In this document: in pieces, positions 750 to 11,351 of the stretch
Layout: every line of letters starts with the position of its first letter
Numbering within the stretch: the first letter of the stretch is position 1
NCBI GenBank assembly: GCA_030765605.1
Contig: JAVCCG010000026.1
Coordinates: 1 to 24,200 of the forward strand
Direction of reading: 5' to 3'
Length of the DNA: 24,200 bases
Source: Candidatus Alcyoniella australis
Lineage (GTDB): Bacteria > Lernaellota > Lernaellaia > JAVCCG01 > Alcyoniellaceae
Made by a program: the position numbers and the translations under genes
The notes under the pieces: generated by a model
Database searches by the model: none
Seen by the model: only the letters and a program-made list of their open reading frames with translations
Told to the model about the DNA's origin: nothing

Positions 750-1272
750 ATGCACGTGCTGCAACGGATTATCGAGCGCATCCAGGGCGCAGGACCGGAG
801 CAGCCGGTGGTGGTTTTCGATTTGGACAGCACGCTGTTCTCCACCGAGCTGCGCAGCTTACGATACGCCGCTGCCCGGGGCCGCGCGGTTCGTCAACCGC
901 GTGTATCGCGCGGGAGCAGTGGTGTGCTACCTCACCGGGCGCGACAGCCCGGGCATGGGAAGCGGAACGCGCGCAAGCCTGAGCGAACACGGCTTTCCCT
1001 TTGACTGCCAGCGGGTCGATCTGCTGATGAAGCCGCGGATCGAGATCAAGGACATGGATTTCAAGCGTGACGCGGTGCGGCAAATCGGTGAGATGGGCCA
1101 AGTGCTTGCCGCATTTGACAATGAACCGGGAAATATCAACCTATTTGCTGATACATTTCCCGAGGCGATCGTGGTGCTGCTCGATACGATCCACAGCCCG
1201 ACGCCAGTCGTGCCTTACGAGCACGTCGTGAGAATCAGCGACTTCAACGGATTGGCTGATCGGAAGGAATAA
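750..1272 (+). pseudogene. HAD-superfamily hydrolase, internally deleted and frameshifted
   Basis: The ATG at 750 has a good Shine-Dalgarno (GGGAG at 737-741) and opens a frame with the HAD motif I VVVFDLDSTLF (the DxD nucleophile pair). That frame becomes meaningless after about 855. From about 856 a different frame continues the same protein: AYDTPLPGAARFVNRVYRAG, then CYLTGRDSPG (motif II-like Thr), MKPRIEIKDMDFKRD (motif III-like Lys) and AAFDNEPGNINLF (motif IV acidic residues), ending at the TAA at 1270-1272. The two parts meet directly, leaving about 35 residues before 'AYDTPLPGA'. In relatives a cap segment of several dozen residues normally lies between them, so the cap appears deleted, with a +1 shift at the junction. 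As read, no complete enzyme can be made. An assembly or consensus error in this spot is the alternative explanation. Confidence 0.8.
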
Positions 1273-1324
1273 AACGGGCAAGAGGCGACCGATCCACGAC
1301 CCGTATCCGGGGCAGCCGCTGAAC

Positions 1325-1504
1325 ATGACGCAGCAGACGTTGGAGCAGGTGAAGCGGCTGCACGGGCTGCTGCCGATCTGTTCCAAGCGCAAGAGCATCC
1401 GCGACGACCAGGGCTACTGGCGGCAGGTCGAAACCTTTACCCACGGGTTGTGCCCGACGTGCCTTAAGGAACTCTACCCCGAGCTCGACGACGACAAGAG
1501 CTGA
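1325..1504 (+). CDS. Orphan Cys-rich domain of the sensor-associated 'LLPICxxCKxIRDDxGYW' type, possibly decaying
   Basis: The frame encodes RLHGLLPICSKRKSIRDDQG, then YWRQVETF and THGLCPTCLKELYPE before TGA at 1502-1504. This is the small domain commonly found at the extreme C-terminus of PAS-domain and response-regulator proteins. Here it stands alone. The usual first CxxC is reduced to CxxR (ICSKRK), while the second pair (CPTC) is intact, and the roughly ten-residue linker usually present between the halves is missing. The first in-frame ATG is at 1325 (59 aa) but lacks a clear Shine-Dalgarno. The frame is open back to 1232, and a good SD (GGAAGGA, 1262-1268) sits five bases before an in-frame ACG at 1274. 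This suggests either a lost ATG or a non-canonical start giving 76 aa. It ends 13 bases from the convergent gene. It may be a remnant. Confidence 0.55.
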   Translation: MTQQTLEQVKRLHGLLPICSKRKSIRDDQGYWRQVETFTHGLCPTCLKELYPELDDDKS

Positions 1505-1517
1505 TCGCCGGTCGGGC

Positions 1518-2621
1518 TCACTTGCCGATGTAGAGCACCTCGCTGATACCCGGCTGCGATATCTGAATCTGCGTGCCGTCGGGCGCGCTGAGCGTGGCCG
1601 TGACGTCGCAGCGGAAGCGCCAGACGTGGCTTTGGGCGAAAAGCCCGGCCACGGTGCGTTCGATGAAGCTCAGCTTGGATAAGATGTCGATGTACTCCAT
1701 CAATTTTTTCACCCGCACCTCGCCGCTGATCGACCAGCCGTTGGCCGCGGCCTGGAACCCCACGCGCATCGGCTTTTTCAGGCCCGTGGCCTGGTCCACG
1801 ACCCAGTCCGAGGGCTGCAGCGCGGCCGCGGTGGTGGCGAGCACAATTTGCGAGCCCTGGGCAACGATGATCCAGGTCGCCAGTCCCGCGCCGTACTGCT
1901 TGGGCAGCCGGAACTCGAGATAGTCGATGGTGTACTCGCCGCTCATGCTGCGCAGGCTCTGCCAGCGATCCGAGTACTGGTTGGGCAGCATCGATACCGG
2001 CGCGTGGTCCAGATAGGCCCGGCCGCTGATCGGGTGCGTTTTGCCCTCGAGGGTCACGGTTCCCGTAAGCTCGGCCATGGGCACGGGCACCCGCGCGCTG
2101 TAGTACTTCTGTTTGTCGCCGTCGAAAAAGACGAAGCTGGAGTTGGGCTGCCAGCCGGGGACCACGGCGTGCAGCTTGACGTCCACGACCATCTCCTGCT
2201 GGGCGACCCGTAGCCGGAAGTTCGGGTAGTCGCCGCTGAGGAAGCTCTGGCCGACCTTGATATCCAAGCGTTCGGTGGAGGCCTCAAACGCTTTGTCGTC
2301 GAACTCCTGGCGCACGAAGTGATCTTCGCCCTGCGGGTCGATCCAGGTCACGTCGACCGTGGCCTTCTGGTCGCCGATGCCGATGTTGGTGATCATCACG
2401 TTGCAAAAAAGCGCGCCGCCGTCGTCCAGGTCGGCGAGCACGAACCAACTGATGGAGAACATCTCGCGCTCGTCGGGGAAAAAGCTGTACTGCGAGAGGG
2501 GCAGCGGTTCGTTCAACGGCCAGGGCTCGCCGGGGAAGACCTCGACCTGCTTGGCATGGGCAACGGACGCGCACAGCGCCACGACCAGCAACGCCGATAA
2601 AAGCAGCAGCGGTTTTCTCAT
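1518..2621 (-). CDS. Secreted CrtC/Svf1-like (lipocalin-type) protein
   Basis: The 367-residue product has a clear Sec signal peptide (MRKPLLLLSALLVVALCASV, cleavage probably after AHA at 21-23), so it is exported. The mature part is rich in beta-strand-like sequence and carries FFPDEREMFSISWFVLADLD near the N-terminus and GRAYLDHAP at about 200-208. Both resemble the double-lipocalin fold family that contains carotenoid hydratase CrtC, AttH and yeast Svf1. These proteins bind or modify hydrophobic ligands; the ligand here cannot be told. It has no carotenoid genes beside it, so a CrtC reaction is not implied. The ATG at 2619-2621 has an SD (GAGG, six bases upstream). It lies 24 bases downstream of tnaA on the same strand and may be co-transcribed with it. 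Family call is moderate. Confidence 0.6.
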   Translation of the reverse strand: MRKPLLLLSALLVVALCASVAHAKQVEVFPGEPWPLNEPLPLSQYSFFPDEREMFSISWFVLADLDDGGALFCNVMITNIGIGDQKATVDVTWIDPQGEDHFVRQEFDDKAFEASTERLDIKVGQSFLSGDYPNFRLRVAQQEMVVDVKLHAVVPGWQPNSSFVFFDGDKQKYYSARVPVPMAELTGTVTLEGKTHPISGRAYLDHAPVSMLPNQYSDRWQSLRSMSGEYTIDYLEFRLPKQYGAGLATWIIVAQGSQIVLATTAAALQPSDWVVDQATGLKKPMRVGFQAAANGWSISGEVRVKKLMEYIDILSKLSFIERTVAGLFAQSHVWRFRCDVTATLSAPDGTQIQISQPGISEVLYIGK

Positions 2622-6727: not shown

Positions 6728-7765
6728 ATGAGACTGATCGTTACCGGAGCGGCCGGGTTTCTGGGTTACCATATCTGCAACGAGCTCGCCGAGCACTACG
6801 ACGAGATCGTGGCGCTCGATGTCGCCGACTTCGTCGAGAACGAATATCCCGCCAAAACCAGCTTCCATAAGGTCGATATCCGCGACCTCGATGCGCTCAA
6901 GGCGCTGTTCGCGGGCGGAGGGCTCGTGGCCCACGCCGCGGCCGCCCTGCCGCTGTGGAAGCCCGAGGACATCTACAGCACCAACGTCCAGGGCACGCGC
7001 AACGTGCTCGAGGCGGCCAAGCATTGCGGCGTTGAGCGCGTGGTGCTGGTCTCGTCCACCGCGGTCTACGGCGTGCCCGAGAAGCACCCGATTTACGAGG
7101 ACGATCCGCTGGTCGGCGTGGGCCCCTATGGCGAATCGAAGATCGAGGCCGAGCAGATCTGCGTCGAATACCGCTCCAAAGGGCTGATTGTGCCGATCAT
7201 CCGCCCCAAGACCTTCATCGGTACCGGACGCCTGGGCGTATTCCAGATCCTCTACGACTGGGTCCAGAGCGGCAAGAAGATCCCGATCATCGGCAACGGC
7301 AAGAACCGCTACCAACTGCTCGAGGTTGAGGACCTGGTCTCCTCGATCCAGCTCGCGCTCAGCGGTCCGGCCGAAAAGGTCAACGATACGTTCAACGTCG
7401 GCGCCAAGGAATTTCACACGGTCAACCAGGACGTGGGCGAGATGTGCGCCTACGCCAATAGCGGCGCGCGGGTGATGCGCACCCCGGCCTGGCTGGTCAA
7501 GCTCGTGCTCGAGCTGTTCTGGATGCTGCGCATCTCGCCGCTGTACAAGTGGGTCTACGGCACGGCCGACAAGGACTCGTTCGTCTCCATCGAAAAGGCC
7601 GAAAAGGTGCTGGGCTGGGAGCCCAAGTACTCCAACGCCCAGGCGCTGATCCGCTCCCACCAGTGGTACCTGGACCACAAACACGAGCTGGCCGGAGCCG
7701 AGGGCGTCACCCACCGCGTGGCCTGGAAACAGGGCATTCTCGGGTTTATCAAGAAGTTCATGTAA
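6728..7765 (+). CDS. NAD-dependent epimerase/dehydratase (extended SDR)
   Basis: The 345-residue protein is an extended short-chain dehydrogenase/reductase with an N-terminal NAD-binding Rossmann fold. It carries the glycine motif TGAAGFLG (about 6-13), Asp at the end of strand 2 (VALDVAD), the DIRD motif, the VSSTAVYG catalytic Ser region and the YGESK catalytic Tyr/Lys pair. Such enzymes act on nucleotide sugars, steroids or hopanoid precursors; the substrate cannot be read from the sequence. A hydrophobic stretch (LVKLVLELFWML, around 258-269) in the substrate domain resembles the 3-beta-HSD-like branch more than sugar epimerases, which is only a hint. The ATG at 6728 has GAGGAG just upstream. 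Its last 8 bases overlap the 3' end of the convergent KaiC-like gene. Confidence 0.82.
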   Translation: MRLIVTGAAGFLGYHICNELAEHYDEIVALDVADFVENEYPAKTSFHKVDIRDLDALKALFAGGGLVAHAAAALPLWKPEDIYSTNVQGTRNVLEAAKHCGVERVVLVSSTAVYGVPEKHPIYEDDPLVGVGPYGESKIEAEQICVEYRSKGLIVPIIRPKTFIGTGRLGVFQILYDWVQSGKKIPIIGNGKNRYQLLEVEDLVSSIQLALSGPAEKVNDTFNVGAKEFHTVNQDVGEMCAYANSGARVMRTPAWLVKLVLELFWMLRISPLYKWVYGTADKDSFVSIEKAEKVLGWEPKYSNAQALIRSHQWYLDHKHELAGAEGVTHRVAWKQGILGFIKKFM

Positions 7766-9722
7766 CGCCGCGTCTAAGGAGCGGCTGCCGCCCGATGTAC
7801 TTCTGGGTGTACGGCACCAGGTGCAACAAGTTAAAGGGCTTCTGTGATGGATCGTCTGAGATGCAGTACTCGATGAACACCAGGCGCCAGTCCTTCTTGT
7901 AGACCTTGCCCGTGATGTTCTCTACCGAGATCGTCATTGCCTTTTGACGGATGTCGGTTTTCCATTTCTTGGGCAAATAAACAGTATTTTGCGGTGTTAC
8001 AAGATAGCGTGTGCGGTCGATGATCCCGAGTTTGATGATGATGTCGGCCATGGCCCGCAGTCCGAACAGCAGTTGATCGTCGGCCCCTGGGCCGTTGACC
8101 GCGATGAACAACGATCCGATGTGTTTTTCCTTTAAATAATTGATCAGCATCGGCATAAAGATCCGCTCGGCGTGCAGCAGCGGGAAGCGTAGGGGCAGGT
8201 GGGCCGTGCTGTTGAACAGCACGCGCTCGATATTGGGGTGCTTTTCGATAAACTCGTCGAAGATGCCGATGAATTCCTCTGCGAGCAAGAACCCGGGGTC
8301 GAAGTCGAGGATGTGCAGGGTGCCTTTTTTGCAGCCTCGGGTGTAGGCGGTGATCTCGAACTTGTCCTGCGCAATGGTCCTTTGGGGGGGCGTGAATGTC
8401 ATCCGGCCATCCAGCTCCTGGGGAATGCGTTTGATGTCGACCCGCTCCCCGAGGTTGATGACCACGGCGTCCTTGCCGTTGCGCACCGAATCGAACAGGT
8501 AGTTCATGGCCACGGCGAACTTGTGTGTGCCGCGCTCGCCCTCGAGGATGATGCACCCGTCGCGTTCGAACTCTTCGGCATTTCTTTTATCGGCATTATC
8601 GTAGATCAGCTTGTCGATCTCGCTGATGCCGAATGAGACGACGCTTTTCCCTTGGCTGTTGCTTGTATTCTGTTGGTCTTCCTTCTCTGATTGTTTTCTA
8701 CGCTTGGCCTGAATGATCTGGTGGTGCATTGAGACGAAAATTCTGAACACGGGATCATCGACTCTGATTTTAAAGGGATGCTTGCCGAACACGTGGCGCT
8801 GGTAGCGGCTCTTGGTGATTTCGATGATCTTGACCTTGTATTCTGAGCGCTCGTCCCAGTCGAGGGTGATAACGATATCGGCCAGGAATTCGACGTCGGA
8901 GATCAGCGGCGACGAGCCGTTGTCCAGCGAGGATTGATCCTGCTCGTAGAGGAAAATGCTCAGGGGAACGTGGCGTGAGAAGAGGGTGAAGATGCGGTAG
9001 AGCTGCTCGCGGGTCAGCGGATTGCACGAGAAGACGTTGAGGCTGTCTACGACAATCGCCAGGATTCGGTCGAGTTTCTTGCTGCCGGCCCGCGATTCCT
9101 CGATCAGGCGCGAGATCTGTTTGAAGCGCTGCCAGAAAACGTTGTCAGCCGGCTGATCTCCCTCCTCGAGAAACCGTGGCGAGAGCTTGGGAAAAAGCAC
9201 CACGCGCTGCTCTTGTGCATCCTCGACCACTTTTTCAAACAGCAGCCGACGGTGCTCGGTCTCGTCCGGTAGCGGGATCGAGCCCTCGGATTTAGCGATC
9301 AGCTGGTAATTCTCCAACATGGCATATTTTGGTTTTGGACCCTTGAGCTTTTCACAGATCATGCGTCGACCGACCTCGATCAGCGGCGTGAGAGCCTGCT
9401 CGATGGAGTAATAGACGCATACTCCTTTATCCCGGACGTGGTCCGATAGACATTGGCCTTTGATATCGCACTTGGCGAGGAAAGCCTTGGACAGAATCTC
9501 AAGGGCCAGTGTCGATTTGCCCAGTCCGGCCGGTCCCTTGAGCAACACCGTGACTCCTTGGTTGAACCAACTCCAGAAAGGATCGCCTGCAGCCATGTCC
9601 GTTCCGGGCAGGACGATTCCCCTGGGCTTGCAGTCCTCGCTCAGCTCGTCGAGCAGGCCGTTGAGGGTGTTGATACCCGTGTCGATTACCATCGAGTCGG
9701 GATCTTTTATACTGTTATCCAT
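7758..9722 (-). CDS. KaiC/RAD55-like two-domain RecA-fold ATPase
   Basis: The 654-residue protein has two KaiC-like RecA-fold halves. The first carries an intact Walker A (GPAGLGKST, 63-71), an acidic motif in the position of KaiC's catalytic Glu pair but reading SIEQ (Glu108 followed by Gln), Walker B LAIVVDSLNVF (Asp226), and the KaiC-family signature ITKSRYQRHVFGKHPFKI (about 302-319). A charged linker (about 340-360) leads to a second half that starts FGISEIDKL. There the P-loop is degenerate (GERGTHKF, 395-402, lacking the GK[ST]), while a Walker B-like LHILDFDPG (469-477) remains. Half one should bind and hydrolyse ATP; half two is probably structural or regulatory. The C-terminus lacks an obvious membrane segment. 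Its ATG overlaps the HD gene stop (ATGGATAA), indicating translational coupling. It is not a circadian KaiC: no kaiA or kaiB is present. The family call is sound; the function is unknown. Confidence 0.8.
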   Translation of the reverse strand: MDNSIKDPDSMVIDTGINTLNGLLDELSEDCKPRGIVLPGTDMAAGDPFWSWFNQGVTVLLKGPAGLGKSTLALEILSKAFLAKCDIKGQCLSDHVRDKGVCVYYSIEQALTPLIEVGRRMICEKLKGPKPKYAMLENYQLIAKSEGSIPLPDETEHRRLLFEKVVEDAQEQRVVLFPKLSPRFLEEGDQPADNVFWQRFKQISRLIEESRAGSKKLDRILAIVVDSLNVFSCNPLTREQLYRIFTLFSRHVPLSIFLYEQDQSSLDNGSSPLISDVEFLADIVITLDWDERSEYKVKIIEITKSRYQRHVFGKHPFKIRVDDPVFRIFVSMHHQIIQAKRRKQSEKEDQQNTSNSQGKSVVSFGISEIDKLIYDNADKRNAEEFERDGCIILEGERGTHKFAVAMNYLFDSVRNGKDAVVINLGERVDIKRIPQELDGRMTFTPPQRTIAQDKFEITAYTRGCKKGTLHILDFDPGFLLAEEFIGIFDEFIEKHPNIERVLFNSTAHLPLRFPLLHAERIFMPMLINYLKEKHIGSLFIAVNGPGADDQLLFGLRAMADIIIKLGIIDRTRYLVTPQNTVYLPKKWKTDIRQKAMTISVENITGKVYKKDWRLVFIEYCISDDPSQKPFNLLHLVPYTQKYIGRQPLLRRGVT

Positions 9723-11196
9723 TGTCCGCTTCCTCTTCGAACAGGGATTTCAGGGCCGTGACGAATTGCGTTTTCACAGTCTCGACCTGGTTGTCGTTCG
9801 ATTTCTGGTTAGAAGGTTTTTCAGGCAAAACGATGTTCAACGTCCATTCGCCGTCCATCGGCACAATTCGCAGAATGAATTTATCGTTGTTGTTTTTAAA
9901 GTATTCAGGGATCAGCGGGTCTGAGGGATGCTGCTCGGCCTCGTCCCTTAAGGGCCTGCTCCACAGGCCGGAGAGCCGTTCGAGCCTGCGGGCGATCATT
10001 TTCAATTGTTCGATGTCGTGGATGCCGCTTTCGTTGGAGAGCATTTGCCACGAGAAATAGCTTTTGCCGAACACGCCGAAGCGCAGCCGGAACATCGCAT
10101 TGATCACGTTTAACAGCTTGTACTGCGCCAGGTTGGGCTCGAGAGCTAAACGCAAATTGCCTTCTACCGACTTGAACAGGTGGCCGTTGAACGAGACGCG
10201 GCAGGCGCGGATCTCGAGGTCCATTTGTTTGTAGATCGGCCACCAGGTTTTAATCAGGCTCATCTTGTTTTGCAGGTCTTCGATGAACTTTTGGAGCAAC
10301 ACACCCTTTTTTGATAGGAGCTTTTCCGAGGGGAAGACCAGCAGCGAGCGGCTCGTCAGGTCGATCGTACAGCCGACGATCTGCTGGCGTAGATCAGCCT
10401 TCTTGGTAGCGGTTTGTGAGGCAAACAGGTCCTTGATTAGGAACTCGGGCAGGGTCCTATGGTATGAGATGTCCATTTCGTCGGCCAGGGCCAGGATCGC
10501 GCCCAGCCAGGCGATGCGCAGCGGGCCGAAGCGCTCGACGCATACATTGTCCAGGAACATCGTGCTTAGCAGCTTGTCAGCGATTTTGCGCTCGTGCAGC
10601 AGCGAAACCAGCGCGACCTGTTGAGCGATATGCTCGTCGAACAGCCCCATCTCGTTGTGGTGCATCAGAATGTAATAGTACGAGTAAAAGGCGTGATGTG
10701 GGTCCGCTTCGCCGTCGAGCGCATCTTTGATGTTTTGGTCCAGATGCTTCTCTGTGATGGCGGCTTTCTTTTCCTGTGTATCTTTGGCTATCTCTTGAGT
10801 CAGGGCATCGATGGCTCGCTCGATTTTTTGTAGCGATCGAGCTTTAGGAGCGATATAGGTGCCGTCCTCATCAAATAAATAGTCGTCCACCGCCTCCCGT
10901 TTCCTGCTTTTGTAGCGGTTCTTATACATCCGCCCAATGTCATGCAGGTAGATCGAGCAGAGCAGGATGAAGATCTCCACCTGGTTCAGGGGGATCGCTT
11001 GTCTGTCGCCCTTGATGATGTCGTTGCAGATTCGCTCGACGTTCTGAATGTGCGTCAGGCCCGAGTGGCTGGCTCCGTCGTCAGGCATCGCGCTGATCCA
11101 GCGCTGTGCGAGCTGCTCAACGGTCTGAAAACTCGGGTAGAGCTTTAATGCGGAACCCTGATCGAACTCCTGCAAACGCTTGCGAAGATACGACAC
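9715..11196 (-). CDS. HD-domain phosphohydrolase-like protein paired with the KaiC-like ATPase
   Basis: This 493-residue soluble protein has an N-terminal HD-type metal-dependent phosphohydrolase domain. Candidate metal ligands are His44/His49 (HSGLTHIQNVERI), the HD pair His85-Asp86 (IYLHDIGR), His179-His180 (LMHHNEMG), His201 (LLHERK) and Asp239/Asp242 (LALADEMDISYHR). The arrangement resembles the HD-CE type of prokaryotic conflict-associated HD domains; that assignment is from memory of the motif layout. A highly charged insert of about 70 residues (95-165) separates the HD pair from the later histidines. The C-terminal half (about 260-493) is alpha/beta, resembles nothing I recognise, and could be a sensor or effector-binding region. 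The start is GTG at 11194-11196, with GAGG five bases upstream; an ATG at 11210 is out of frame. It overlaps the KaiC-like gene by 8 bp. Confidence 0.72.
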   Translation of the reverse strand: MSYLRKRLQEFDQGSALKLYPSFQTVEQLAQRWISAMPDDGASHSGLTHIQNVERICNDIIKGDRQAIPLNQVEIFILLCSIYLHDIGRMYKNRYKSRKREAVDDYLFDEDGTYIAPKARSLQKIERAIDALTQEIAKDTQEKKAAITEKHLDQNIKDALDGEADPHHAFYSYYYILMHHNEMGLFDEHIAQQVALVSLLHERKIADKLLSTMFLDNVCVERFGPLRIAWLGAILALADEMDISYHRTLPEFLIKDLFASQTATKKADLRQQIVGCTIDLTSRSLLVFPSEKLLSKKGVLLQKFIEDLQNKMSLIKTWWPIYKQMDLEIRACRVSFNGHLFKSVEGNLRLALEPNLAQYKLLNVINAMFRLRFGVFGKSYFSWQMLSNESGIHDIEQLKMIARRLERLSGLWSRPLRDEAEQHPSDPLIPEYFKNNNDKFILRIVPMDGEWTLNIVLPEKPSNQKSNDNQVETVKTQFVTALKSLFEEEADNG

Positions 11197-11243
11197 AGCA
11201 GCCTCGACATATGTTTAAGAATAAAAAATTCAGATATGACATA

Positions 11244-11270
11244 ATTATCACTGCCCGGATAAAAAGTAAA
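11244..11270 (-). promoter_or_regulatory. Candidate promoter of the HD-KaiC operon
   Basis: On the minus strand TTTACT (11270-11265) precedes GATAAT (11249-11244, five of six matches to the -10 consensus) with a short 15-base spacer. The 11197-11290 stretch is strikingly AT-rich compared with the rest of the window, as expected for a promoter region of a separately controlled unit. Spacing is suboptimal, so this is tentative. Confidence 0.38.
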
Positions 11271-11297
11271 TCTACTCGGTCGTAATAGCTGGAAACT

Positions 11298-11327
11298 AAA
11301 GCCCGGGAGCATCGGCCCCCGGGCTTT
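11298..11327 (-). terminator. Intrinsic terminator after the CreD-like gene (bidirectional form)
   Basis: The perfect inverted repeat AAAGCCCGGG (11298-11307) and CCCGGGCTTT (11318-11327) encloses a 10-base loop. It lies about 25 bases beyond the stop of the minus-strand CreD-like gene. The U-tract is better in the plus direction (six T) than in the minus direction (TTTAGTTT), but the only gene nearby that needs it is on the minus strand. It insulates the HD-KaiC operon from its upstream neighbour. Confidence 0.75.
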
Positions 11328-11351
11328 TTTGTGCGTGCGGCTGTCTTGCGA

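Follow-up and report, generated by a model that had tools for sequence, protein, structure and literature searches.

The HD dNTPases SAMHD1 and dGTPase have four ligands in their HD site (H..HD..D). Two further His are seen in the ligand set of binuclear HD phosphodiesterases and nucleases (HD-GYP, PgpH, Cas3-HD), and two of these, HD-GYP and PgpH, are cyclic-dinucleotide phosphodiesterases with six-ligand HD sites. In the tandem ATPase KaiC of the cyanobacterial clock, the roles of the motif residues, including the catalytic Glu and the trans-acting K-x-R, are known. The combination of an HD effector with a dedicated partner protein has been described for the anti-phage system Clover, in which the HD dNTPase CloA, a dGTPase, is paired with a regulator, the nucleotidyltransferase CloB (PMC12265719).

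Here, we describe a gene pair from a 24,200-nucleotide stretch of the genome of Candidatus Alcyoniella australis (hereafter, the window), which encodes an HD-CE family protein and a tandem KaiC-like ATPase. As proposed for this pair, Clover consists of two genes, with an HD effector restrained by its partner. However, the partner in the window is KaiC and not a nucleotidyltransferase, the Clover effector is a dNTPase, and no sequence relation between the two systems was detected. A literature search, which covered few subscription papers, revealed no paper describing an HD/KaiC pair, and a conflict-systems paper in eLife (2020) names neither HD-CE nor KaiC; the absence of a published pair is a weak sign of novelty. 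The HD-CE effector domain is known, and the new element would be the KaiC-type switch.

Organization of the gene pair

Both open reading frames were found at the coordinates given by the first-pass annotation, and the 8-bp overlap that it described between them is exact (Table 1). Its identification of the two products also agreed with the profile searches: the HD protein matched PF24391 (E 2.1e-16, 60.9 bits, cut-off 27), and the ATPase matched PF06745 in two stretches (E 2.2e-14, 53.8 bits, cut-off 26.6). The motif GAGGAAG is located 6 nt upstream of the kaiC ATG. The pair had further been credited with its own AT-rich upstream region and with an isolating terminator. The former was borne out, with a GC content of 42% at 11197-11330 versus 63% for the window. 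The latter held in part: the hairpin is strong, but it is on the + strand that its T-run is uninterrupted, the tail on the module's own strand being TTTAGTTT, and the hairpin was absent from the list produced by a pattern scan. At its other end, the kaiC gene has an 8-bp tail-to-tail overlap with a convergent epimerase gene (window 7758-7765).

Table 1. Coordinates of the HD/KaiC gene pair, its domains and its flanking signals in the window.
Feature	Position	Strand	Basis or remark
HD-CE family protein, GTG start	9715..11196	-	493 aa; PF24391 above cut-off; homologues in three other genomes
HD domain and alpha/beta extension	10189..11139	-	residues 20-336; ligands H49, H85, D86, H168, H201, D239
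Probable winged-helix domain in C-terminal half	9829..10134	-	residues 355-456; low-confidence model
Tandem KaiC-like ATPase	7758..9722	-	654 aa; PF06745 above cut-off and fold alignment of low-confidence model
KaiC domain D1	8727..9611	-	motifs invariant or almost invariant across the four homologues
KaiC domain D2, degenerate	7998..8636	-	weak PF06745 match and alignment
8-bp gene overlap ATGGATAA	9715..9722	-	HD gene stop and kaiC gene start
Shine-Dalgarno-like GAGGAAG of kaiC gene	9729..9735	-	inside HD gene; read from sequence
AT-rich leader of HD/KaiC module	11197..11297	.	GC content and sequence
G+C-rich hairpin, possible terminator, between creD-like gene and module	11298..11327	.	-25.6 kcal/mol fold

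Linkage of the HD and KaiC genes in distant genomes

In a whole-genome search, the HD protein matched one further genome of 60, G047, which belongs to another phylum; at this locus (L005), a 474-aa HD gene is followed after 39 bp by a 635-aa KaiC gene. A pattern scan of genome contigs with the KaiC protein led to two Candidatus Aminicenantes MAGs (loci L006 and L007), and the HD protein alone gave no match in the same scan. In both Aminicenantes loci, HD is fused to the first KaiC domain (D1) in a single polypeptide (848 and 893 aa), and the second (D2) has a gene of its own, which overlaps the HD-D1 gene by 4 bp. The order HD, KaiC-D1, KaiC-D2 is retained in all four loci, whereas the gene break shifts: it separates HD from D1-D2 in the window and G047, and HD-D1 from D2 in the Aminicenantes. 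Identity to the window proteins is 30–33% for HD, 36–38% for D1, and 27–37% for D2.

The first-pass annotation considered the two genes to be a module and suggested adjacency in other genomes as a check. HD adjoins KaiC in four of the four homologous loci, two of them with the HD-D1 fusion, and we have hardly any doubt that HD and KaiC constitute one module. Because the fusion and the gene order persist over such divergence, the sequences provide strong evidence that the two proteins would work as one functional complex. The opposite assumption, that the genes are chance neighbours without a functional link, draws on there being four known cases only; it is extremely improbable, since the order is kept in three lineages, the reading frames overlap, the gene break has shifted, and the HD-D1 gene fusion already contradicts it. 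The context statistics are nevertheless weak, because the homologous loci represent three independent lineages only. The two natural arrangements point to the interface between effector and switch.

The HD protein

The homologous HD proteins scored 50.8 (L006), 57.0 (L007), and 48.4 bits (L005) with PF24391. Ligand conservation had been put forward as a further check of the module, and all six expected metal ligands are invariant in the alignment of the four-member family; when eight remote HD-CE proteins were added, five of the six remained invariant, and H201 was found in 11 of 12 sequences. The HD protein is likely to be enzymatically active. Because its set H..HD..H..H..D has two His beyond the dNTPase set, a phosphodiester is the better guess for the substrate and is probably favoured over a nucleoside triphosphate. 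The first-pass annotation had offered, as an example, an ATPase that controls hydrolysis of a nucleotide or second messenger; with regard to this suggestion, too, the ligands lean to phosphodiesters and away from nucleoside triphosphates.

The same ligands bear on the possibility that the HD protein is a nucleotidase, which would hydrolyze dNTPs or NTPs to starve invaders and be held by the ATPase, like the Clover dGTPase or SAMHD1. HD dNTPases with a regulator are proven anti-phage effectors, as demonstrated by Clover CloA/CloB (PMC12265719), but the two additional His depart from the SAMHD1/dGTPase four-ligand set, and no dNTPase family match of the HD protein was found in Pfam, NCBIfam, or PADLOC. 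We consider this explanation quite improbable, and an assignment to Clover or to dGTPase-type HD defence was rejected on the missing family match and the KaiC partner.

The structural model of the HD protein has low confidence (mean pLDDT 52). Plain Foldseek was uninformative on this model, whereas a second aligner gave matches to PPX/GppA and to winged-helix proteins. The closest solved fold to residues 17-336 is the C-terminal HD domain of PPX/GppA exopolyphosphatases (Z 8–12, best 11.8), although the HD protein is devoid of their actin-like catalytic domain. PF24391 also gave weak matches to other HD proteins, PPX/GppA-like ones among them, which we attributed to the similarity of HD domains in general and disregarded. 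Residues 355-456 aligned with many winged-helix chains (ScpB, OmpR, IclR-type, and others; Z 8–10.4), of which ScpB was the top match (Z 10.4). We call this region a probable winged helix, since the aligner's notes mention possible non-specific matches at Z below 8, or below 13 in the case of helical bundles. A Pfam search gave no match for this region. The HD profile found nothing when run against the sequences of the PDB.

A sharper form of the explanation that we prefer, and one compatible with it, is that the HD protein is a nuclease for DNA or RNA that resembles Cas3-HD or Cas10-HD and is gated by the ATPase. The probable winged helix agrees with this, and so do the PADLOC results, in which the HD part weakly matches Cas3-HD (1.5e-4 in L006 and 2.2e-4 in L007) and Cas10_Id (8e-4 in L005). 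However, the Cas-HD matches lie close to background and may stem from the HD fold as such, and the closest structural matches are the HD domains of PPX/GppA; the nuclease form is somewhat unlikely.

The tandem KaiC-like ATPase

The description of the second protein as a double KaiC proved right as to the presence of two KaiC domains, but the second of them is degenerate. D1 has Walker A GPAGLGKST (63-71), the Glu of YSIEQ (105-109) in the place of the KaiC catalytic Glu, Walker B VVDSLN (224-229), and, within TKSRYQRHV, K304-x-R306 at the position of the KaiC trans-acting residues. In D2 of the window, the P-loop reads GERGTHKF, the segment of the catalytic Glu NLGE, and Walker B LFNSTA. The alignment revealed the same losses in all four homologues: His or Asn precedes the P-loop Lys and Phe or Leu follows it, Gly replaces the catalytic Glu, and Walker B lacks Asp. 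As read from these motifs, the ATPase site of D1 is intact and D2 is a degenerate pseudo-ATPase. An insert after the D1 Walker A (window 9440-9475, - strand) contains 2–3 Cys in every homologue, with C85 invariant, and is a possible metal or redox site.

D2 matched PF06745 below the cut-off in three of the four members (E 9e-4, profile positions 2-215 of 231). Since a comparison of the D1 and D2 profiles aligned the shared linker alone, D2 was assigned to KaiC by its weak Pfam and fold matches and not by similarity to D1. The low-confidence model of the KaiC protein aligned end to end with tandem KaiC structures over about 550 columns (Foldseek E 2.4e-16). In tandem architecture, D1 motifs, and fold it resembles the cyanobacterial clock KaiC; however, an assignment to the circadian clock protein (NF006799) was rejected, as the score is 36.1 bits versus an equivalog cut-off of 408 and D2, without ATPase motifs, is not an active second (CII) domain. 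PADLOC, run in the window on the HD and KaiC proteins, revealed no strong match for either. The KaiC protein weakly matched the mad8 ATPase of MADS (2.8e-4 in the window and 1.2e-7 in L006); we refrained from assigning it to MADS, since an unrelated archaeal-type ATPase in L006 matches too (2.4e-4).

Partner domains of remote HD-CE proteins

PF24391 was searched in 290 genomes, and the matches were annotated. HD-CE was found fused to HSP90-like ATPase domains (L046, L047, L048, and L051), to NB-ARC and TPR in a 1109-aa protein (L049:2233-5562, +), and to a CARF domain (Cas_APE2256) in an 832-aa protein (L034:1398-3896, -), the last being a candidate CRISPR-associated HD effector. The earlier claim that similar HD domains occur in conflict systems is supported by these fusions. 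On the evidence of domain architecture, HD-CE is a recurrent output domain of conflict-type regulated NTPases and sensors. The HD/KaiC module would conform to this pattern, its switch being of the KaiC type.

The proteins combining HD-CE with HSP90-like or STAND (NB-ARC) domains share with the module the same HD ligands and the coupling to a regulated NTPase. The module differs in that a tandem KaiC with a dead D2 serves as the NTPase, in that part or all of this NTPase is encoded by another gene, and in that a probable winged helix is present in the HD protein. The CARF fusion likewise has an HD-CE effector attached to a sensor, which is of the CARF type, whereas the module has the KaiC ATPase.

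The genome of L006 also contains an HD-CE and HSP90-like ATPase gene that overlaps a NACHT-pentapeptide STAND gene (L051:6001-11515, +).

Distribution and genomic neighbourhood

The module is rare and scattered. The HD profile matched the genome of the window (G000) and G047 among 386 sampled genomes, the known MAG alone among 247 genomes of its phylum, and 2 of 34 genomes in the Aminicenantes family; there was no match in 345 relatives of another genome, a set without a positive control. The KaiC-D1 profile recovered the same two genomes as the HD profile among 241, with no other match at 1e-8. The module was not found in six genomes of the same class, and neither protein was found in phages, plasmids, or viral contigs. 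The third-position GC (GC3) of the module genes is 0.73–0.75 versus 0.83–0.88 in eight other window genes. The patchy distribution, together with the deviating GC3, suggests horizontal acquisition. In the same-class genomes, the genes that flank the module show no synteny, and no empty site was recognizable in this comparison.

In the window, the module is surrounded by epimerase, CreD-like, RNase II-type, and spermidine-synthase-like genes, and no evident defence gene was seen near the module in L007. Defence or mobile genes are present at two of the four loci. In L006, a Septu-type pair of PtuB (HNH) and PtuA (ATPase) is located at 784-2605 (-), at a distance of a few kb to the fused module. 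The L005 region includes AbiEi/AbiEii, a type IV (T4SS) coupling protein, RadC, DUF932, and a PIN-like pair, the latter judged by eye.

The ordinary chromosomal genes around the module in the window and L007 would suit a role in housekeeping or stress signalling, in which the KaiC-type ATPase would be a sensor of the energy state and a second messenger would be degraded by the HD phosphodiesterase under its control, with the winged helix as transcriptional output. Six-ligand HD sites, which are typical of cyclic-dinucleotide phosphodiesterases, agree with such a role, and KaiC-like ATPases are known regulators. We nevertheless regard signalling as unlikely, given the very patchy distribution with absence from all six same-class relatives, the deviating GC3, the defence or mobile neighbours at two loci, and the immune-type NTPase or CARF partners of the remote HD-CE relatives. 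The distribution, the codon use, and the neighbours at these two loci favour a conflict or defence role, which is also supported by the HD-CE fusions to HSP90-like, NB-ARC and TPR, and CARF domains. The ordinary neighbours in the window, the lack of an evident defence gene in L007, the absence of phage and plasmid copies and of a strong PADLOC match, and the low confidence of the models argue against it. Overall, we lean slightly toward a conflict or defence role.

Proposed function

We propose that the module is a rare, horizontally spread pair of effector and switch that operates as a conflict system, probably anti-phage or anti-plasmid; by analogy with the HD-CE systems above, we give this complete reading an even chance. 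The notion of an effector and switch pair is based on the linkage in all four loci, the HD-D1 fusion in two of them, the ligand conservation, and the intact D1 combined with a degenerate D2. The KaiC tandem may assemble into a ring in which D1 would bind or hydrolyze ATP and the dead D2 could be used as a sensor or scaffold. This ring would hold back the HD protein attached to it until the ring changes its state in response to a cue, such as phage or plasmid activity. The released HD site would then cleave a phosphodiester substrate, which may be a nucleic acid or a cyclic or oligo-nucleotide, and the winged helix may help to bring the HD protein to DNA or to the KaiC ring. The KaiC-type switch would thus stand where HSP90-like, STAND, or CARF modules stand in other HD-CE proteins. 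More tentatively, and at somewhat less than an even chance, this would be the first immune or conflict module to be described with a KaiC-type tandem as the gate of an HD phosphodiesterase, one ATPase domain of the tandem being active and the other dead.

In conclusion, the gene pair adds a KaiC-type switch to the NTPases accompanying HD-CE domains and, being small, is testable. If the proposal is true, a ring resembling a clock protein would have been reused as the trigger of an effector. To our knowledge, few roles of KaiC-like ATPases have been established beyond the cyanobacterial clock and archaeal motility, and the module, if confirmed, would tie these ATPases to a defined enzymatic output.
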